This document shows, in pieces, positions 17,460 through 42,843 of a DNA stretch of 64,000 nucleotides (positions are counted from its first letter, which is position 1; each line of letters opens with the position of its first letter). A program made the translations under genes and the position numbers. The stretch is taken from NCBI GenBank assembly GCA_020436935.1, contig JAGQWX010000012.1:1-64000 (forward strand), in the 5' to 3' direction. The notes beneath the pieces are model-generated. The model ran no database searches, was not told the DNA's origin, and worked only from the letters and a program-made list of their open reading frames with translations. The stretch comes from Saprospiraceae bacterium. GTDB lineage: Bacteria > Bacteroidota > Bacteroidia > Chitinophagales > Saprospiraceae.

Positions 17460-20279
17460 ATGCCTAGAGACAACTCAATCAAATCTGTTCTTATCATTGG
17501 AAGCGGTCCCATCATCATAGGACAAGCTTGTGAATTTGATTATTCAGGATCACAAGCTGCAAGATCCCTTAGAGAAGAAGGAATTGAAGTTAGCCTTATC
17601 AATTCAAATCCGGCAACCATCATGACGGACAATGTGACCGCAGATCACATTTACCTCATGCCACTTACTGTAGAAAGTCTTGAGAAAATTCTCCAGGAAA
17701 GACAGATCGATGCTGTTTTGCCAACAATGGGTGGACAAACCGCTTTGAACCTCGCAATTGATGCCAATAACGTTGGACTCTGGGAAAAGTATAATGTGCG
17801 CATGATTGGCGTAGATATCGATGCCATCGAACTTGCAGAAAACAGAGAAAAATTCAGACAACACGTCATCTCTCTGGGTCAGCACGTAGCACCATCATAC
17901 ATCGCGAATTCTTTTCTTGAAGGAAAAGAAGCCGCACAGAAGATAGGCTTTCCTTTGGTAATCAGGCCTTCCTACACATTGGGTGGTACTGGTGGTGGTT
18001 TCGTCATGAAGGATGATGAATTCGACGCAGCGCTTCGTCGTGGTCTCGATGCTTCGCCAACACACGAGGTTTTGGTAGAAAAAGCAGTACTCGGATGGAA
18101 GGAATATGAGTTGGAGTTGTTACGTGATGCCAATGACAACGTGGTCATCATTTGTACTGTGGAAAACCTCGACCCAATGGGCATCCATACTGGAGACAGT
18201 ATAACCATTGCGCCTGCGATGACATTGTCTGACACCGCTTTTCAGCGCATGAGGAACGATGCCATCCAGTTGATGCGCTCTATGGGTAATTTTGCAGGTG
18301 GATGTAACGTACAATTTGCCTTAAATCCGGAAAACGAGGACCTCATCTGTATAGAAATCAACCCAAGGGTTTCAAGATCTTCTGCTTTGGCCAGTAAGGC
18401 TACAGGATATCCGATCGCAAAAATCGCAGCAAAGCTGGCAATAGGATATAATCTGGATGAATTAAAAAATCAGATCACCAAAACTACTTCTGCCTATTTC
18501 GAACCATCACTCGATTATGTGATAGTAAAAATGCCCCGATGGAATTTTGAAAAATTCAATGGTGCTGACACTACGCTTGGTCTGCAGATGAAATCCGTTG
18601 GTGAAGTGATGGCCATTGGCAGGAATTTTCTTGAAGCATTGCAAAAAGCCTGTCAGAGTCAGGAAAACAACAGAGCCGGACTTGGTGCGGACATCAAAGA
18701 GTGGATCCGAACCGAAGACATTCTTTCCAGGCTTGAAAAAGCAAGTGACGACAGAATATATCGGGTAAAGGATGCCCTTAGACTTGGCGTTCCTGAAAAA
18801 ACTATTCAGAAACTTACCCAGATCGATAAATGGTACATCAAACAAATCAAGAAGCTTGTTACTGTTGAGGACGAATTGATGAGATACAATGTTGCTGAAG
18901 ATATTCCAGTAGAGTTTTTCAGACAATTGAAAACTTTGGGATATTCTGACGCTCAAATTGCATGGGTATTGAGAATCAATGAGGAGGAAGTAACCAGACA
19001 GAGAAAAAAACTGGGCATAGTCAGAACCTATAAAATGGTGGATACATGCGCAGCTGAGTTTGAAGCAAAAACACCATATTACTATTCTACTTTCGACAGC
19101 GAAAACGAATCGATTCCAACAAAAGACAAGAAAAAAATCATTGTTTTAGGCTCAGGGCCAAACAGGATAGGCCAGGGAATTGAGTTTGACTATTGTTGTG
19201 TACACGGAATTCTTGCCATAAAAGAGGCCGGATATGAAGCCATTATGGTCAATTGCAACCCCGAAACCGTTTCCACAGATTTTGATATAGCCGACAAACT
19301 CTACTTCGAACCCATTTACTGGGAACATATTGAAGAAATTATAGACCTGGAAAAACCAGAAGGCGTCATTGTACAGCTTGGCGGCCAGACAGCTTTGAAA
19401 CTGGCTGAAAAAATCCACCAAAAAGGAGTAAGAATCATCGGTACTTCGTACAATGACATGGACCTTGCTGAAGACCGCGGAAGGTTTTCTGATTTGCTCA
19501 AAGAGCTTGGAATCCCGTATCCAAAATATGGCACTGCAAAAGATGCAGACGAAGCCCTGGTAGTAGCAAATAATGTAACCTACCCTGTGCTGGTAAGACC
19601 TTCCTATGTATTGGGCGGTCAAAGGATGAGGATCGTCATCAATGACGATGAATTGGAAGCTCAGGTATTGAACATCTTCAAGCACATGCCGGACAATAAG
19701 GTATTGATAGATCAATTCCTCGAAAGAGCCAAAGAAGCAGAGATTGACGCCATCTGTGATGGGGATGAAGTGCACATCATGGGCATCATGGAACACATCG
19801 AACCGGCAGGTATCCACTCCGGAGACAGTTCTGCCACCTTACCTACCTATTCGTTGAGCGACAATGTCATTCAACAGATGAAAGATTATACCTTAAAGTT
19901 GGCTAAAGCACTGAATATTCTTGGCCTTATCAACATACAGTTTGCCATCAAAGACGAAAAAGTTTATGTGATCGAAGCCAACCCGAGAGCTTCAAGAACT
20001 ACTCCGTTCATTGCCAAGGCTTACAATGTGCAATACCTCAACATTGCAACACAGGTTATGATCGGAGCCGCCAAACTCAAGGACTTTGAAATAGAAAAGA
20101 AACTCAACGGATACGCCATTAAGGTTCCTGTCTTCTCTTTCAACAAGTTTCCAAATGTTGATAAACAATTGGGGCCAGAAATGAAGTCAACTGGTGAAGC
20201 CATTCAGTTCATCAAAGATCTGAATGATCCTTTCTTTAGAGAACTAGATAGAAACAGAAACGTTTACCTTACCAGATAA
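17460..20279 (+). CDS. carB: Carbamoyl-phosphate synthase large subunit, short form
   Basis: A 939-residue large subunit. It has two homologous ATP-grasp halves: residues 1 to about 400, starting [20 protein letters not shown], and about 550-939, starting [20 protein letters not shown]. An oligomerisation segment lies between them. It combines bicarbonate, ammonia from CarA and two ATP into carbamoyl phosphate for arginine and pyrimidine synthesis. E. coli CarB has about 1073 residues; this one stops at [13 protein letters not shown], where the C-terminal MGS allosteric domain would begin, so that domain is absent. Nothing coding for it follows. carA is not adjacent. An SDR gene starts 13 bases downstream. 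Confidence 0.95.
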
Positions 20280-34978: not shown

Positions 34979-37243
34979 ATGCACAACATGTTTCGTATTT
35001 TATTGCTTGTGATTTTCCCGGCTTTGCTTTTTGCACAGGGAAAGTTTGAACAGTTGGGGTCTCTTCTTCCAACACCAAATACTTATAGATCTGCCAGTGG
35101 TGCACCAGGACATGAATACTGGCAGCAACGCGCCGACTATAACATTAAAGTTACCCTTGATGATCAGAAACAACAAATAACCGGCGAAGAAACCATTACC
35201 TATTTCAACAACAGCCCAGACGTACTTAAATACCTCTGGTTGCAGTTGGATCAAAACAGGAGAGCCAAAGACTCTGACACCTACAAAGTATCACAAAGTG
35301 AGTTTGGTGAAAACACCAGCGAGGCATCCTTACAGAGAATGACACCTGATTTTGAAGGAGGGCACAACATCACTTCAGTCACGGATGTAGCAGGAAAAGA
35401 TCTTTCTTACTTCGTGCAAAAGACCATGATGCGCATTGAGCTTCCACTGCCTTTGGCCAAAGGGCAAAGCTATTCGTTCAAAATCAAATGGTGGTACAAC
35501 ATCAACGATCGATTGAAAATTGGTGGAAGAAGTGGATATGAGTACTTTCCGAAGGACGACAATTACTTATACACGATTGCTCAATTCTTCCCTAGAATGT
35601 GCGTATACGATGATGTAACTGGCTGGCAAAACAAGCAATTCCTAGGTTCCGGTGAATTCACACTCAGCTTTGGAAACTACACTGTTGAAATAACTGTACC
35701 CGAAGACCACCTGGTAGCTGCAACAGGGGAGCTTCAAAACATGACACAAGTTCTGACAAAGAATCAGCTGAGCAGATACAATGAAGCGAAGAAAGCTACC
35801 GAACAGCCTGTTATTATTGCAACCCAGGATGAGGCCATTCAAAGAGAAAAAACAAAAACGTACAAAACCAAAACCTGGAAATTTAAAGCAGACAATGTGA
35901 GAGACTTTGCTTTCGCATCTTCGAGAAAGTTTATTTGGGATGCAATGGCTGTAAACCAGGGAGGCAGAACGATTATGGCCATGTCCATGTACCCCAAGGA
36001 AGGCAATCCATTGTGGGAAAAATACAGCACCAAATCTGTTGCCCATACGCTGAAATGGTATTCGCACTACACTTTTGAATATCCTTACCCGGTTGCTTGG
36101 AGTATCAATTCAGACAGAATCGGAATGGAATATCCTATGATATGTTTCAATGGGGGAAGGTGTGAAGAGGATGGTACCTATACAGAAAGAACCAAGTATG
36201 GTACAATCAGCGTGATTATACACGAAGTTGGACACAATTACTTTCCAATGATCGTCAATTCTGACGAAAGGCAATGGACATGGATGGATGAGGGACTTAA
36301 CTCTTTTCTCCAGTATTTGGCAGAATGTCAATGGCAAAGGGATTATCCTTCCAGAAGGGGACCAGCAGAAAACATTGTCTCCTATATGAGTAGCGCTCAG
36401 GAGGATCTTACACCGATCATGTCAAACTCTGAGAACATCAAGCAGTTTGGAAACAATGCTTATGGAAAGCCTGCAACAGCCTTGAACATTATGAGAGAAA
36501 CTATTCTGGGAAGAGAGCTTTTTGATTACGCTTTTAAAGAGTATGCCAACAGATGGAAATTCAAGTCTCCTACTCCTGCGGATTTTTTCAGAACTATGGA
36601 GGATGCCTCTAGTGTTGATTTAGACTGGTTTTGGAGGGCATGGTTTTTTGGAACCCAACCGGTTGATATGAGTATTGCCAATGTTAAGTACTTCAGCGAA
36701 TTGGCTCCAACACCTGAGGAGACTTATAACAGTGTTCTTAAAGAAAGGGAGGAGAAGGCCCAATACATTTCTGATCTAAGAAATAAGGAGGAAATCAAAC
36801 AAACTTATATAGAAATGGACACCAGCCTTGTGGACTTTTACAATAGATATGATGCCGCTAAAGAAGAGTACATGGTCGCAAATAAGAATGCAACTGAGCC
36901 AAAAAAGGATGCAAAGCACTTTTATGAAATCACTGTCGAAAACATTGGAGGAAATCCAATGCCTGTTATCATAGGATTTGAAATGGAAGATGGCAGTTTT
37001 GAAAAAGATGTTTTGCCGGCTGAAATATGGAGGTTTGATGACAAGAGCATCACCAAGGTATTTGCCAAAACCAAAAAGGTAAAGAGAATTGTACTAGACC
37101 CTAATCTTGAAACAGCTGACATAGACAAGTCGAACAATGCTTTTCCAAGATCTAAGGAAATATCAAGATTTGAAACTTTTAAGAATAACCGTCCGGATGT
37201 ATCTAACCCAATGCAAAGGGCGCAAAGAGAATCGAGGCCATAA
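34979..37243 (+). CDS. Secreted M1-family zinc metallopeptidase (copy 2)
   Basis: A 754-residue paralogue of the peptidase at 1245-3626, collinear over its whole length. The signal peptide is MFRILLLVIFPALLFAQG; the start could be the ATG at 34979 or the in-frame ATG at 34988. The zinc site HEVGH is at 415-419 with Glu438, and GMEYP replaces GAMEN at about residue 383. It is about 39 residues shorter than copy 1, partly from a shorter segment before the final beta domain. Both end with MQ(K/R)A-type tails. Likely an extracytoplasmic aminopeptidase. Two parS sites lie directly downstream. Confidence 0.9.
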   Translation: MHNMFRILLLVIFPALLFAQGKFEQLGSLLPTPNTYRSASGAPGHEYWQQRADYNIKVTLDDQKQQITGEETITYFNNSPDVLKYLWLQLDQNRRAKDSDTYKVSQSEFGENTSEASLQRMTPDFEGGHNITSVTDVAGKDLSYFVQKTMMRIELPLPLAKGQSYSFKIKWWYNINDRLKIGGRSGYEYFPKDDNYLYTIAQFFPRMCVYDDVTGWQNKQFLGSGEFTLSFGNYTVEITVPEDHLVAATGELQNMTQVLTKNQLSRYNEAKKATEQPVIIATQDEAIQREKTKTYKTKTWKFKADNVRDFAFASSRKFIWDAMAVNQGGRTIMAMSMYPKEGNPLWEKYSTKSVAHTLKWYSHYTFEYPYPVAWSINSDRIGMEYPMICFNGGRCEEDGTYTERTKYGTISVIIHEVGHNYFPMIVNSDERQWTWMDEGLNSFLQYLAECQWQRDYPSRRGPAENIVSYMSSAQEDLTPIMSNSENIKQFGNNAYGKPATALNIMRETILGRELFDYAFKEYANRWKFKSPTPADFFRTMEDASSVDLDWFWRAWFFGTQPVDMSIANVKYFSELAPTPEETYNSVLKEREEKAQYISDLRNKEEIKQTYIEMDTSLVDFYNRYDAAKEEYMVANKNATEPKKDAKHFYEITVENIGGNPMPVIIGFEMEDGSFEKDVLPAEIWRFDDKSITKVFAKTKKVKRIVLDPNLETADIDKSNNAFPRSKEISRFETFKNNRPDVSNPMQRAQRESRP

Positions 37244-37254
37244 TTAGAATGTTA

Positions 37255-37270
37255 TGTTTCACGTGGAACA
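37255..37270. other. parS: parS site 1 (ParB-binding centromere)
   Basis: TGTTTCACGTGGAACA; its reverse complement TGTTCCACGTGAAACA fits the bacterial consensus TGTTNCACGTGAAACA exactly. It lies 11 bases after the M1 peptidase stop and outside any gene. Confidence 0.9.
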
Positions 37271-37291
37271 AAGTCGATTGTAGATCAAATT

Positions 37292-37307
37292 TGTTTCACG
37301 TGAAACA
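37292..37307. other. parS: parS site 2 (ParB-binding centromere)
   Basis: TGTTTCACGTGAAACA is the perfect palindromic parS consensus. It begins 37 bases after site 1 begins, between the convergent M1 peptidase and alpha/beta hydrolase genes. ParB loaded here would spread and direct chromosome segregation with ParA and SMC. Confidence 0.95.
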
Positions 37308-37310
37308 TTA

Positions 37311-38093
37311 TTAAGAAACTACTTCGTTGGAAACTCTTTGTAAAAATGAACCCAAAAGCCTGTTGAACTCTTCAGGATGTTCCATCATGGCGACGTGGCC
37401 ACAGTTGTCAAATAAGTGTAGTTCTGAATTCGGAAGCAATTCATGAAACTTTTGCCCAACCCACATTGGAGTCACTTCATCATCTTTACCCCATATCAAA
37501 AGCACAGGTTGTTTGATGTCCTTTAACTTATCTTCAAGGTTATGTCTTACAGCTGATTTAGCTGTCTTAACGATCCTGATACATTTACCAAGGTCATTAA
37601 CAGTAGCAAATACCTCATCGATCAATTCCTGAGTAGCACTTTCAGGGTTGTAAAAAACCATTTCAGTCTTTGCTTTTACATATTCATACGAACCTCTCTT
37701 AGGAAAGGTGTTGCCCATAGCACTTTCAAATAAGCCGCTACTTCCTGTTAATATGATGCTGTGGACAACATCCGGATAAGTCAATGCAAGCAGCTGACAA
37801 ATATGACCGCCAAGAGAGTTACCAAGAACATGTACTTTTTCGTATCCCTTAAACTTGATAAATTGATATACATGCTCAACAAGACCATCAACGCTCAAAG
37901 ATTTAAGCGGCATTTCAAAAATAGGCAGCATAGGCACCACTACGTTCATCTCCTCATAGAAATGATCTATGATGGTTTCGAAATTACTTAATGCTCCCAT
38001 CAATCCATGCAGCAGAACCAAAGGATACTCAGTACTATCAGGCTTGCTTTCAATGAAAGAGAACTCGCCTACGTGTTGAATTTGATGTTTCAC
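37311..38093 (-). CDS. Alpha/beta-fold hydrolase
   Basis: A 260-residue hydrolase. It has the oxyanion-hole segment LLHGLMGALSNFE, the nucleophile elbow GNSLGGH (Ser near residue 92), an Asp in LIWGKDDEVTP and the final His in NCGHVAMMEHP. No signal peptide, so it is cytosolic. The start codon is GTG at 38093; its own -7 element (38113-38120) lies 20 bases upstream. The last codons stop 4 bases from parS site 2. Substrate unknown; esterase or C-C hydrolase are both possible. Confidence 0.88.
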   Translation of the reverse strand: MKHQIQHVGEFSFIESKPDSTEYPLVLLHGLMGALSNFETIIDHFYEEMNVVVPMLPIFEMPLKSLSVDGLVEHVYQFIKFKGYEKVHVLGNSLGGHICQLLALTYPDVVHSIILTGSSGLFESAMGNTFPKRGSYEYVKAKTEMVFYNPESATQELIDEVFATVNDLGKCIRIVKTAKSAVRHNLEDKLKDIKQPVLLIWGKDDEVTPMWVGQKFHELLPNSELHLFDNCGHVAMMEHPEEFNRLLGSFLQRVSNEVVS

Positions 38094-38112
38094 TTTATCC
38101 GTTATTTTAACG

Positions 38113-38120
38113 CAAAGTTA
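38113..38120 (-). promoter_or_regulatory. -7 promoter element of alpha/beta hydrolase gene
   Basis: Minus-strand TAACTTTG matches TAnnTTTG exactly, lying between the heme A synthase stop and the GTG at 38093. This supports separate transcription and the GTG start. Confidence 0.55.
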
Positions 38121-38126
38121 TAAAAA

Positions 38127-39068
38127 TTATATGTTGCCTTTTTTAACACTTACTCTATTTAAATAAATCTTATTGATTAAATCAAAACAAAGACATATCA
38201 ACAACAGAGAAAAGAGCAAGTGCATAGGTTGCATAAATGCTGGAAATCCCATATAAGAAAAACCAATTCCAATGATAAATAACAACACCACCAGAATCAA
38301 AAACCCTACAAGGTGGACTTTATATTCTAACTTTTCCTTCATATGGTACAACATATACACACATATACCAAGGATCAGCCAACTAAAAGAGCGATGGACA
38401 AAAAACAATACACCGGAAGAATCCAACCAGGTCTCTCTGGAAAGATATCCTAGTGTTTTACTCACTTCATCTATATTCTCTCTCAGTTGTATGCCAAGAA
38501 ATAATTGAACCAATAACAAAACCATTAATCCAAAAGCTGCATAGTTCAACTTCTTGTCATTATACACCAGTAATTTGCTATGCTGAATGTTGAGGATAAT
38601 CAATGGTACAAATGCCAACACCAGAGCACTGATCATATGTAAGGATATCTTGGCTACTGCAAGATTGTGATCTACAACCAATTTGCCAAGCCATCCTGAA
38701 AAACCTACTAACACAACCATCAATCCTGAAAGCACAACATACTTAGTACCAAACGCCTTTCTCTTGACCAAAGTCCAAACAAAATGGATTAAAATCAAAA
38801 CACCCAATAAAGCACCAAAAAGTCTGTTGATGTATTCTATCCAGGTATGATATACATTGAAAGTATGGTCAATATCCTGTTTGCTTAGATATTTTTCAAA
38901 ATCTGCAGGCAGATCGTCGGCAGAGGTCGGAGGAATCCAGTTGCCGAAACACTTGGGCCAATCAGGGCATCCCATACCGCTTTGAGTTGTTCTCACAACA
39001 CTTCCGGCAATAACCACCAGAAAAATAAAAACAAAGATCACTTTAGTATAAATCCTATAACTCCTCAT
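38127..39068 (-). CDS. ctaA: Heme A synthase, COX15/CtaA family
   Basis: A 313-residue integral membrane protein with about eight helices, the same size as Bacillus CtaA (306). The N-terminal RTTQSGMGCPDWPKCFG is the family signature with its paired Cys. Conserved heme-ligand His candidates lie in HTWIEYINRLFGAL, HMISALVLAF, HRSFSWLIL and MQPMHLLFSLL. It oxidises heme O to heme A for cytochrome oxidase, so the organism respires with an aa3-type or related oxidase. A -7 element (39086-39093) lies close upstream. Confidence 0.92.
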   Translation of the reverse strand: MRSYRIYTKVIFVFIFLVVIAGSVVRTTQSGMGCPDWPKCFGNWIPPTSADDLPADFEKYLSKQDIDHTFNVYHTWIEYINRLFGALLGVLILIHFVWTLVKRKAFGTKYVVLSGLMVVLVGFSGWLGKLVVDHNLAVAKISLHMISALVLAFVPLIILNIQHSKLLVYNDKKLNYAAFGLMVLLLVQLFLGIQLRENIDEVSKTLGYLSRETWLDSSGVLFFVHRSFSWLILGICVYMLYHMKEKLEYKVHLVGFLILVVLLFIIGIGFSYMGFPAFMQPMHLLFSLLLICLCFDLINKIYLNRVSVKKGNI

Positions 39069-39085
39069 TGCTCGACTGTGGATTG

Positions 39086-39093
39086 CAAATGTA
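39086..39093 (-). promoter_or_regulatory. -7 promoter element of heme A synthase gene
   Basis: Minus-strand TACATTTG matches TAnnTTTG exactly, 18 bases before the ATG at 39068. Confidence 0.45.
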
Positions 39094-39179
39094 TGAAAGC
39101 AAATTCAAAAGAAATTTTGCCATTCGCCGTCTTTATTATTGATTATATTTTTTTTTAAATTTCAAAGAACCCCATCATT

Positions 39180-39470
39180 AGATGTGTGTAAATGTGGATA
39201 TATTATTTTCCCTAAGTGCTTGTGTGTTTCGATACTAAGATTGAGTTTGACAAAAGGAATAAAACAGCCACTAGTTTACAATGAATTAACAATTTTGTCA
39301 ACATTGTTGATAAATATCAACAGAACAAAGAGAAAGAGAAAAGGATCAAATAAGCGTGCTAAAAATCATAATGAAAATTATAATATGATTTTTTTCATTT
39401 ATATGTAATCTTTATCGATGGATCATATTTATTTTTTCTAATATAATCTCCACATTGTTGGTGTTGAAAA
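39180..39470. other. AT-rich intergenic region, candidate replication origin
   Basis: The 468 bases between the divergent ctaA and dtd genes (39069-39536) contain no plausible gene. DnaA-box-like 9-mers (consensus TTATCCACA) are at 39193-39201 (one mismatch, minus), 39295-39303 (two, plus), 39305-39313 (one, minus), 39314-39322 (two, plus), 39446-39454 (two, plus) and 39462-39470 (two, minus). Those at 39305-39322 form the perfect 18-base palindrome TGTTGATAAATATCAACA. A very AT-rich stretch follows (39361-39445), as in an unwinding element. Two parS sites lie 1.9 kb away and dnaN 1.5 kb away. No experimental or skew support is available here. Confidence 0.4.
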
Positions 39471-39536
39471 CGCATTTTTCAAACCATTACAAAAGAGCTA
39501 TTTTCGTATTATAAAAAATCGTACTGTTTGTAAACT

Positions 39537-39995
39537 ATGAGAGCCGTAATACAAAGATCAAAGTCGTGTTCAATAACCATAAATGACACGGATATAAGAC
39601 CGGTAGAGGATGGATTTTTTGTCCTGCTTGGTATTGAGGAAGAAGATACAGAAGAAGACGCAGAATGGTTGGCTCAAAAAGTCATCAACATGCGGGTATT
39701 CTCTGATGAAGAAGGAAAAATGAATTTGTCTTTGGCACAGGTAGAGGGGGGTATACTCATAGTTTCCCAATTCACTCTTTTTGCATCTACCAAAAAAGGT
39801 AATAGACCCTCTTTTATACGATCAGCAAAACCTGATCGGGCAATACCGCTCTATGACTTCTTTGTTGATGAATGCAAAAAACAATATGAATTCGCTGATA
39901 AAATAAAAACCGGCGAGTTTGGTGCAGATATGAAAATACAATTTGTCAATGATGGTCCGGTCACCATCATCATAGATTCAAAAAACAAAGAGTAG
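39537..39995 (+). CDS. dtd: D-aminoacyl-tRNA deacylase
   Basis: A 152-residue protein of the DTD family, typical length about 145-150. It begins MRAVIQRSKSCSITI and carries the two active-site motifs SQFTLFA (about 77-83) and the C-terminal NDGPVT (about 139-144), whose Gly-Pro sits at the dimer active site. DTD hydrolyses D-amino acids wrongly attached to tRNA. The mazG-like gene starts one base after its stop, so they form an operon. Confidence 0.95.
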   Translation: MRAVIQRSKSCSITINDTDIRPVEDGFFVLLGIEEEDTEEDAEWLAQKVINMRVFSDEEGKMNLSLAQVEGGILIVSQFTLFASTKKGNRPSFIRSAKPDRAIPLYDFFVDECKKQYEFADKIKTGEFGADMKIQFVNDGPVTIIIDSKNKE

Positions 39996-39996
39996 T

Positions 39997-40338
39997 ATGG
40001 AAATCAATAGGTATCAGGAGATCGTCGATCAGTGGATAAAGACCGTAGGAGTGAGGTATTTTGATGTAAAGACCAATACATTGATCCTTGCTGAAGAAGT
40101 GGGAGAGTTCGCTAAGATTGTTGCCAGAACGTATGGTGAACAATCTTTTAAGACACCAACAACAGAGGAAGAAGCAAAAGAAATGTTGACAGATGAACTC
40201 TCGGATGTATTCTGGGTATTGACCTGTCTGGCAAATCAGCTGGATATCAAACTTGAAGATGCGCTGGAAAAAAATTTAGCAAAAAAGAACATTAGGGATA
40301 AGGACCGTCACAAACAGAATCCAAAGTTGAATCTCTGA
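39997..40338 (+). CDS. MazG-like nucleotide pyrophosphohydrolase
   Basis: A 113-residue single-domain all-alpha NTP pyrophosphohydrolase. The metal-binding acidic motif is split between LAEEVGEFAKIV (about 33-44) and DELSDVFWVL (about 68-77), followed by the basic KNLAKKNIRDKDRH. Such small enzymes hydrolyse dCTP, dUTP or other NTPs to monophosphates and clean the nucleotide pool. It is coupled to dtd with a one-base gap and converges on nadD. Confidence 0.88.
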   Translation: MEINRYQEIVDQWIKTVGVRYFDVKTNTLILAEEVGEFAKIVARTYGEQSFKTPTTEEEAKEMLTDELSDVFWVLTCLANQLDIKLEDALEKNLAKKNIRDKDRHKQNPKLNL

Positions 40339-40346
40339 CTCCAACA

Positions 40347-40946
40347 TTACTTTTGTTTGTATAAATGATTATCTGTAATGTAGTTGTATACAGCATCGGT
40401 CACCATATATCTGAATTCCTTCTTATCTGCAATACGCTGTCTGATGTATGAGGATGAAATGTCCAGAAGCGGTGCGTCCACAAATCTGATATTGTGTGTA
40501 CCTGCGACAAAATCAGGGAGTTCCGGAGCGTTTCCCGGTCTGTTGTAAACGATGATCTCATAATCTGAAATCAAACTTTCCCAGTTTTTCCACTTGTTGA
40601 TGCTGTGGATATTGTCACCTCCCATCACCAGGACAAATGTTTTATGTGGGTATTTTTCTCTTAAGTAGGTAAGGGTATCTATCGTGTAAGAAGGTTTGGG
40701 CAAGGCAAACTCTATATTAGAAGCTTTTATCGCAATATTTTCTCCTATTGCCATTTCCACCATGCGCAGACGATCGTAATCATTTGCCAAAGACTTTTTG
40801 TCCTTCAAGGGATTCTGCGGACTCACCACCATCCACAACTCTTCAATCTGCGCGTCGGAAATTAAATGCCCTGCAATGATGAGGTGCCCAACATGGATTG
40901 GATTGAAAGATCCAAAAAATAAACCCGTCTTTTTCTGAGCGGACAT
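40347..40946 (-). CDS. nadD: Nicotinate-nucleotide adenylyltransferase
   Basis: About 199 residues. The nucleotidyltransferase motif GSFNPIHVGH lies near the N-terminus and SSYIRQR near the C-terminus matches the ISSTxxR motif. It adenylates nicotinate mononucleotide in NAD synthesis. I place the start at the ATG at 40946; an in-frame TTG at 40955 overlaps the dnaN stop but is less likely. It follows dnaN by 5 bases and is probably cotranscribed with it. Confidence 0.92.
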   Translation of the reverse strand: MSAQKKTGLFFGSFNPIHVGHLIIAGHLISDAQIEELWMVVSPQNPLKDKKSLANDYDRLRMVEMAIGENIAIKASNIEFALPKPSYTIDTLTYLREKYPHKTFVLVMGGDNIHSINKWKNWESLISDYEIIVYNRPGNAPELPDFVAGTHNIRFVDAPLLDISSSYIRQRIADKKEFRYMVTDAVYNYITDNHLYKQK

Positions 40947-40951
40947 CAAGA

Positions 40952-42067
40952 TCAATACGTTGACAATACCGGCATAACCAGCATCATCAGGTGTTCGTTC
41001 TTGGATTGTTCTGCGGGAATCAAAATTCCTGCGCGGCTTGGAACGGATGTATTAAGAATAGCTTCTTCTGTTTCGATATTTCCCAGCATTTCGATGAATA
41101 TTTTGGCATTGAAGCCCATGCTCATCAACTCGCCATTGTATCTGCAAGCCAGCTGCTCTGTAGCCTCATTGGAAAAATCAAGGTCTTGTGCTGATAGAGT
41201 CAGGGCATTTTCACCCATGTTCAAAATGATTTGATTGGTGCTCTTATTGGCGTAAATGCTTATCCTTCTCAATGAGTTTTGTAGATCTTTCTTATTGATT
41301 ATCAGCTCATTAGGATTTTCTATAGGAATAACCGCGTTGTAATCAGGGAATTTTGCATCAATCAGGCGAGTGATTACAGTAGTACCCTCAAACTTAAAGA
41401 AAGCGTTTTTCCTATTGAAGGATACTTCCAGGTTTCCGGATTCCGGCAGAGCTACTTTCAGTAAAGACAATACCTTCTTTGGAAGAATGATGCTGTCAGT
41501 AATTTCTGAACTGATGCCAAAAAAGCTGTGTTTCACCAGTTTATGAGCATCTGTAGCAACAAAAATCAGTTTGTTGAAATCAATCTGCATCAAGACACCG
41601 GTCATGGCAAGTCGAAGTTCGTCATTGCTGGTAGCAAACATTGTTTTTGAAATGGCGCTGGCCATTTTGTTGCATTCAAAGCTAAAGTTTTCTACCGCTT
41701 CTTCTGTAGGTGGAATTGGAAAATCCTCAACACCATCTCCCGATAGGTGATATTTTCCATATGAAGACATGATGTCTATGCCATTGTTATCACCAACTGA
41801 GATGGTAATGGGTTGCTCTGGCAAAGCCTTCAGTGTTTCAAGAAGAATTTTACTTGGTATGGCAATGCTTCCTGCTTCAATCACCGACACATTGATACTG
41901 GTAATGATTGTCGTGTCCACGTTGGTAGCAGTAATGGTCAGTTTACCAGAGGCGTCGAGGTTAAATAAAAAGTCCTCAGTGACAGGAAGCACTGGATTTG
42001 TAACAATCACTGCTCCTACAACCTGCAATTTTTTTACCAGATCCTGAGACGAAACTTCGAATTTCAT
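40952..42067 (-). CDS. dnaN: DNA polymerase III sliding clamp (beta subunit)
   Basis: A 371-residue clamp with three repeated domains of about 120 residues. It begins MKFEVSSQDLVKKLQVVGAV and ends EHLMMLVMPVLST, the usual C-terminal MPM(R/V)L-type motif. The dimer encircles DNA and tethers the replicase. dnaA is not adjacent, which is common in Bacteroidota. A -7 element (42088-42095) precedes it, and nadD follows after 5 bases. It is 1.5 kb from the candidate origin. Confidence 0.96.
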   Translation of the reverse strand: MKFEVSSQDLVKKLQVVGAVIVTNPVLPVTEDFLFNLDASGKLTITATNVDTTIITSINVSVIEAGSIAIPSKILLETLKALPEQPITISVGDNNGIDIMSSYGKYHLSGDGVEDFPIPPTEEAVENFSFECNKMASAISKTMFATSNDELRLAMTGVLMQIDFNKLIFVATDAHKLVKHSFFGISSEITDSIILPKKVLSLLKVALPESGNLEVSFNRKNAFFKFEGTTVITRLIDAKFPDYNAVIPIENPNELIINKKDLQNSLRRISIYANKSTNQIILNMGENALTLSAQDLDFSNEATEQLACRYNGELMSMGFNAKIFIEMLGNIETEEAILNTSVPSRAGILIPAEQSKNEHLMMLVMPVLSTY

Positions 42068-42087
42068 ACTGCTTTTTTTATTTGCGA

Positions 42088-42095
42088 CAAAAATA
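42088..42095 (-). promoter_or_regulatory. -7 promoter element of dnaN
   Basis: Minus-strand TATTTTTG matches TAnnTTTG exactly, 20 bases before the ATG. A TTG lies 24 bases further upstream, one base beyond the usual spacing. Confidence 0.6.
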
Positions 42096-42111
42096 GAAAA
42101 AATGTCAAGAA

Positions 42112-42462
42112 TTATTTGGCAACTGGAAAGTAATTAAATGTAGCTCCCAATTCGCTAAGAATGAAAATACACACAAATTCATCGGGGTTTTTGTATGATT
42201 TCAAAAATTCATCCACTTTATCTGTAAATATGATGTTTTTAGCCACAAATTCCTCCAGTGTTGTAGCATTAATATTCCACTTACCTCCATGTTTGGGTTT
42301 TTCAATAACAGGAATTCCCATCTCCAGGTCACCTTGATGCGCCGCAAAGATGGGATAGTTGGAAATGTTTTCATCCCGTATCACTTCACCAGCCTGCTGT
42401 AATACGGGCAAATACACCTTAAATTCCTGTTCGAGGGCTAAGAATTTTTCTGTTTTAGACAT
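42112..42462 (-). CDS. Small uncharacterised cytosolic protein
   Basis: A 116-residue protein that I do not recognise. It has no signal peptide or membrane helix. It starts MSKTEKFLALEQEFKVYLPV and has an acidic, mixed alpha/beta composition, ending LSELGATFNYFPVAK. It follows the small lipoprotein gene by 6 bases and is the last gene of the lptB transcript, upstream of dnaN with 44 bases between. Coding is supported by its operon position and clean frame; function unknown. Confidence 0.65.
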   Translation of the reverse strand: MSKTEKFLALEQEFKVYLPVLQQAGEVIRDENISNYPIFAAHQGDLEMGIPVIEKPKHGGKWNINATTLEEFVAKNIIFTDKVDEFLKSYKNPDEFVCIFILSELGATFNYFPVAK

Positions 42463-42468
42463 GTGTTA

Positions 42469-42843
42469 TCAATTTATACTATCAGTATCAACTTCGTTTT
42501 TTGTTGGAGCATCTGTACTATCTTCCGGCACAGTAAGAAATGGCCGGGCCTTTAGTGTATCATTGAGTTGTATATAACCGACATAATTGGGTTTGTAAGG
42601 TCTGCCTGGAAACAAAATACCTTCTCCGACAGAAAAATTGATGTTGTTGATCATGATGCTATCTACCATTTTCTCTACATCGATCATCAAACTTTGCCTG
42701 CAGTTGAATAAACGAAGGCGTTTGTAATTCTCTCCTTCTTCATAAAGCTTTTTTTCGATCAGTCCCATGTCTATGCCTGTTTCATCCGGGAGACACGCCA
42801 CCAAGAAGAGGCAAAAACTCAGCAAAGACAATTTATTTTTCAT
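42469..42843 (-). CDS. Small lipoprotein of the lptB operon (second)
   Basis: About 124 residues from the ATG at 42843. The leader [21 protein letters not shown] has a lipobox (LVAC) with Cys17 as the lipidation site. The mature part is charged, with one further Cys, and ends in an Asp/Thr/Ser-rich tail. The first 11 bases overlap the end of the preceding lipoprotein gene, implying translational coupling. I do not recognise a family. Its place after lptB suggests, but does not show, a link with the outer membrane. Confidence 0.7.
   Translation of the reverse strand: MKNKLSLLSFCLFLVACLPDETGIDMGLIEKKLYEEGENYKRLRLFNCRQSLMIDVEKMVDSIMINNINFSVGEGILFPGRPYKPNYVGYIQLNDTLKARPFLTVPEDSTDAPTKNEVDTDSIN

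Follow-up and report, generated by a model that had tools for sequence, protein, structure and literature searches.

The DNA analysed here, in the following called the window, comprises bases 1–64000 of contig C33 (106345 bases), which belongs to a draft genome of 5.8 Mb in 181 contigs. The genome is that of an uncultured bacterium, placed in the Saprospiraceae by the labels of its closest named relatives (Saprospiraceae or Bacteroidota MAGs). Within it, 468 bp at 39069–39536 are devoid of convincing genes. As claimed in the preliminary description, no gene-free stretch of the window is longer, the runner-up being 247 bp; in the rest of the 106-kb contig, comparable gaps of 473 and 464 bp exist. 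The gap is flanked by ctaA and dtd, and the dnaN gene and the parS sites reported nearby are indeed present:

37255–37270, no strand assigned: parS core with one mismatch
37292–37307, no strand assigned: parS TGTTTCACGTGAAACA, exact, the sole exact parS core in the genome
38127–39068, minus strand: ctaA (COX15/CtaA haem A synthase; PF02628), left flank
39069–39536, no strand assigned: intergenic gap, proposed oriC; longest gene-free stretch in the window, orthologous gaps box-rich as a set
39537–39995, plus strand: dtd, D-aminoacyl-tRNA deacylase (PF02580), right flank
40952–42067, minus strand: dnaN, beta clamp (PF00712/PF02767/PF02768)

Rfam RNAs were not found in 36500–42500. It had been stated that gene orientation does not switch here. 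Locally this is wrong, as ctaA (minus) and dtd (plus) diverge from the gap, but it is right over 20 kb on each side, where the genes mostly face the gap; this is the reverse of the expected bias and counts against an oriC. So does the position of dnaA, whose single copy in the genome is on a contig other than C33. Inspection by eye revealed −7 elements of the Bacteroidota type at the extreme ends of the gap, the one for ctaA at 39086–39093. At the opposite end, TGTTTGTAA (39525–39536) is found directly 5′ of the dtd ATG; it is identical in three genomes and resembles a −7 promoter element. The dtd mRNA may therefore be leaderless.

DnaA boxes were searched for by allowing up to one mismatch to TTATCCACA and, in addition, by a weight matrix trained solely on boxes of other species. 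Together with the AT-rich block, the sites in the gap are:

39077–39085, minus strand: weak DnaA box CAATCCACA, near the ctaA start (weight-matrix scan)
39193–39201, minus strand: DnaA box ATATCCACA, one mismatch
39295–39303, plus strand: weak DnaA box TTGTCAACA (weight-matrix scan)
39305–39313, minus strand: DnaA box TTATCAACA, the best box (mismatch scan and weight matrix), kept in the relative L027
39314–39322, plus strand: weak DnaA box ATATCAACA, abutting the 39305 box and forming an 8+2+8 inverted repeat with it
39340–39440, no strand assigned: AT-rich block, candidate unwinding element (60-bp windows starting at 39340–39380 are 80–87% AT)
39446–39454, plus strand: weak DnaA box ATCTCCACA, aligning with an exact TTATCCACA in L027
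39462–39470, minus strand: DnaA box TTTTCAACA (weight-matrix scan)

The near matches described before are thus real: the gap has two one-mismatch boxes (39193 and 39305), where 0.21 are expected (shuffle P 0.025). The accompanying warning that such boxes arise by chance was justified as well, since the whole 64 kb contain 19 boxes with up to one mismatch and 20.4 are expected by chance. An exact TTATCCACA box is absent from the window's own gap, which counts against an oriC. At threshold 5 the gap, with its seven weight-matrix sites, comes out on top of all 468-bp windows in the 106-kb contig, and at threshold 7 it takes second place. Another box-rich window, at 73.0–73.5 kb of the contig, was rejected as origin because it straddles two coding sequences with a tiny intergenic piece between them. 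Elsewhere in the window, at 19927–20164, two TTATCAACA boxes on opposite strands are 229 bp apart.

The inverted repeat TTGATAAATATCAA had been described as a perfect 18-base palindrome made of two overlapping boxes. Neither is correct: it reads TGTTGATA-AA-TATCAACA, with arms of 8 around an unpaired AA centre, and the boxes abut. It is also an exact match to the FNR-type motif TTGATN4ATCAA. The repeat is not retained in L027 or L026, the two closest relatives compared, where the 39314 half is not conserved. The AT-rich block was found as described, with a core of 80–87% AT, and its word AAAATTATAATATGATTTTTT is identical in L027 at 20 of 21 bases. A search for a DnaA-trio gave one TAGAAAAAATAA run (minus strand, 39429–39440) beside the weak box at 39446; it is mostly poly-A and could easily be a chance occurrence. 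An AT-rich element next to boxes is what an oriC should have; judged from its composition, the block is a candidate for the site of melting.

Stronger evidence comes from the relatives. In the family the order peptidase M1, parS, alpha-beta hydrolase, ctaA (COX15), gap, dtd, mazG is common, although the elements detected vary by genome, the order of parS and peptidase differs, and in many loci the left flank is known just as a minus-strand frame of 335–385 codons at the place of ctaA. Moreover, in four of five complete or near-complete relatives dtd is no longer in such a neighbourhood. We compared 18 gaps, from the window and 17 family genomes (relatives' gaps 261–913 bp), not all of which are independent because L106 and L107 are closely related. 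They contain 61 boxes with up to one mismatch, 11 of them exact, whereas dinucleotide shuffles give 4.2 (sd 2.1, maximum 11 in 200 rounds). Permuted consensus motifs gave a mean of 4.0, and the top one (31) is a copy of the box shifted by one base. Box density is 6.26 per kb in the gaps. The remaining intergenic sequence of these loci, 25.6 kb in 89 stretches, has 0.39 boxes per kb, a 16-fold difference, and 0.40 per kb if AT-rich stretches alone are counted. An unsupervised count of 9-mers returned TTATCAACA (9 gaps) and TTATCCACA (8 gaps) as the most widespread words that contain G or C.

In most gap-bearing loci the gap is also the densest box window. The exceptions are L106, L107 and L110, in which the densest window is outside the gap, and L075, which has the same synteny and no box with up to one mismatch in its gap; all of these count against an oriC. 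The L027 and L026 gaps each hold a TTATCAACA box, and a 15-base run identical between the window and L027, CAACATTGTTGATAA, encloses the one at 39305. In the conservation check proposed in the preliminary description, gap and box cluster thus persist in the family, although individual boxes shift and the inverted repeat is lost in the two closest relatives compared. Overall, there is a DnaA-box cluster in non-coding DNA across the family, less clearly so in the window's gap alone. In L110, L111 and L112 an additional plus-strand gene (~217–248 aa) ends just 5′ of dtd, and the boxes remain on the ctaA side.

Both parS sites are 1.8 kb from the gap, and no other core with up to one mismatch is present in the 5.8-Mb genome. 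ParB is encoded by a single gene, on contig C103. Among the matches listed, parS lies within 7 kb 5′ of dtd in 19 of the 22 family genomes that have an exact parS and dtd on one contig; this set is a sample, as an exact parS core was found in just 63 of 398 family genomes. Closeness to parS is usual, not universal, for an oriC, and it is found here. In two loci of Prevotella-type Bacteroidales (L037 and L081), an exact parS is located 2–2.7 kb upstream of dtd and the upstream genes differ; a box cluster was not found at these two loci.

The GC skew points in the same direction. It is negative to the left and positive to the right of the gap in all seven contigs tested, our own and six relatives, a two-sided pattern that by itself is common (56–100% of positions along these contigs). 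The mean (G−C) per base of our own contig is −0.0053 to the left and +0.0159 to the right. From 17 to 50 kb its cumulative curve is noisy and runs flat, which counts against an oriC; the minimum is at 17.7 kb, and the gap is in the lowest 8%. The G091 minimum is located in the 261-bp gap itself, within 91 bp of its centre, and in G247, G046, G273 and G126 it is within 6–14 kb of the gap. In G046, with a contig of 1.26 Mb, every stretch sampled before the dtd region is negative and every one after it positive. G177 counts against an oriC, its minimum lying at a distance of 97 kb, where the curve is flat over a broad zone; 20 stretches sampled from this single contig were too patchy for conclusions at the level of chromosome arms. 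Over the seven contigs the gap is in the lowest 0.1–20% of cumulative values (Fisher P 1.8e-4; 3.2e-4 without our own contig), the P values being approximate because neighbouring positions are correlated and the contigs were picked for length. The skew check suggested beforehand thus gave the negative-to-positive change expected of an oriC, on a noisy background in our own contig.

Boxes occur elsewhere in the genome, too. The tightest exact pairs are TTATCCACAgTTATCCACA, ~100 bp 5′ of dnaB, and TTATCCACAcagTGTTGATAA, ~290 bp 5′ of nrdB, which encodes the small subunit of ribonucleotide reductase; both genes were named from reading their translations. The dnaB site (L227:1501–1519; G000 C123:10193–10211) consists of two exact TTATCCACA boxes with one base between them, the nrdB site (L226:1501–1521; G000 C126:45679–45699) of a TTATCCACA facing a TTATCAACA. 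Both were rejected as rival origins on the grounds of these positions. Control of nrdAB by DnaA is known. The pair in front of dnaB probably serves control of the helicase gene by DnaA, as far as its sequence and position tell. The two sites suggest that the box words are DnaA boxes of this organism. That DnaA also acts on promoters of other genes has been reviewed (PMC8203912).

Taken together, a conserved, box-enriched intergenic gap is linked to parS and coincides with a change in GC skew. We consider it very probable that 39069–39536 is the chromosomal, DnaA-dependent oriC, located away from dnaA. The origin proposed in the preliminary description is therefore supported by the family box cluster, the parS linkage and the skew change, and better by the relatives than by the window. 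That the boxes are mere chance matches in AT-rich DNA would agree with their chance-level number in the whole window and with the P of 0.025 that alone backs the window's gap; the excess across the gaps and over other intergenic DNA, which holds in the comparison with AT-rich stretches only, refutes it at the family level, and practically nothing is left of this explanation.

The gap could also be a DnaA-binding regulatory or titration site near the origin and not the origin itself, of the DARS or datA type or a DnaA-controlled promoter. Because box pairs are also found before dnaB and nrdB, boxes alone are no proof of an origin, and in some relatives boxes lie just outside the gap. Against this, ctaA and dtd are not replication genes, and the cluster stays with parS and the skew switch, with the G091 minimum right in the gap; we regard such a site as improbable. 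Even less probable is an ordinary divergent promoter in which TTGATAAATATCAA would be an FNR/CRP-type operator for oxygen control of ctaA. The motif match is exact, ctaA is a respiratory gene and a similar site exists in L115, but TTGATN4ATCAA is present in just 2 of 18 gaps and missing from L027 and L026, which nevertheless have a TTATCAACA box. The operator was rejected for this reason. A divergent promoter would, in addition, leave the middle of the gap unexplained, as the −7 elements are at its far ends.

If the gap is the oriC, initiation may proceed as follows. DnaA would occupy the strong TTATCAACA box at 39305 together with weaker boxes flanking the AT-rich block, oligomerise and melt the block at 39340–39440. 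The DnaB helicase would then be loaded and replication would be bidirectional, and ParB would segregate the newly copied origins via the two parS sites 1.8 kb off. DnaA binding, the site of melting, helicase loading and initiation at the gap are all deduced here from the features described above.

The element resembles the oriC of the gidA-mioC type from E. coli, with its TTATCCACA boxes and unwinding element: both are intergenic and AT-rich, have 9-mer boxes in both orientations and lie at a GC-skew switch. In contrast, the neighbours of the gap are ctaA and dtd and neither dnaA nor gidA, TTATCAACA is found as often as TTATCCACA, and strong boxes are few in this species. The origins of Bacteroides caecimuris and Muribaculum intestinale were likewise placed by a parS cluster and skew, in a study which also noted that origin and dnaA do not coincide in every case (PMC10197239). 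There, in another family, only the position was given, whereas here an intergenic element with its boxes was found by comparison. From the same phylum, the chromosomal oriC of Cytophaga hutchinsonii is used in replicative oriC plasmids (PMC5891637, PMC5288383). An experimentally mapped origin from the Saprospiraceae was not found in the open-access literature searched, which is weak evidence of absence. Novelty is confined to where the element lies and to its conservation across the family; elements of this kind are well known. One could speculate, though we think it rather doubtful, that the dtd neighbourhood is the ancestral origin locus of the Bacteroidota, that the origin kept its place by parS and dtd when dnaA, among other genes, moved, and that boxes of the TTATCAACA type are a principal class.

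In the Bacteroidota, dnaA is an unsafe guide to the origin. The conserved ctaA-gap-dtd arrangement with parS would serve as a marker for locating the origin, also in metagenome assemblies that are fragmented, and such a placement is needed for growth-rate estimates from read depth. The gap itself is a small fragment that may be tried for the construction of replicating plasmids.
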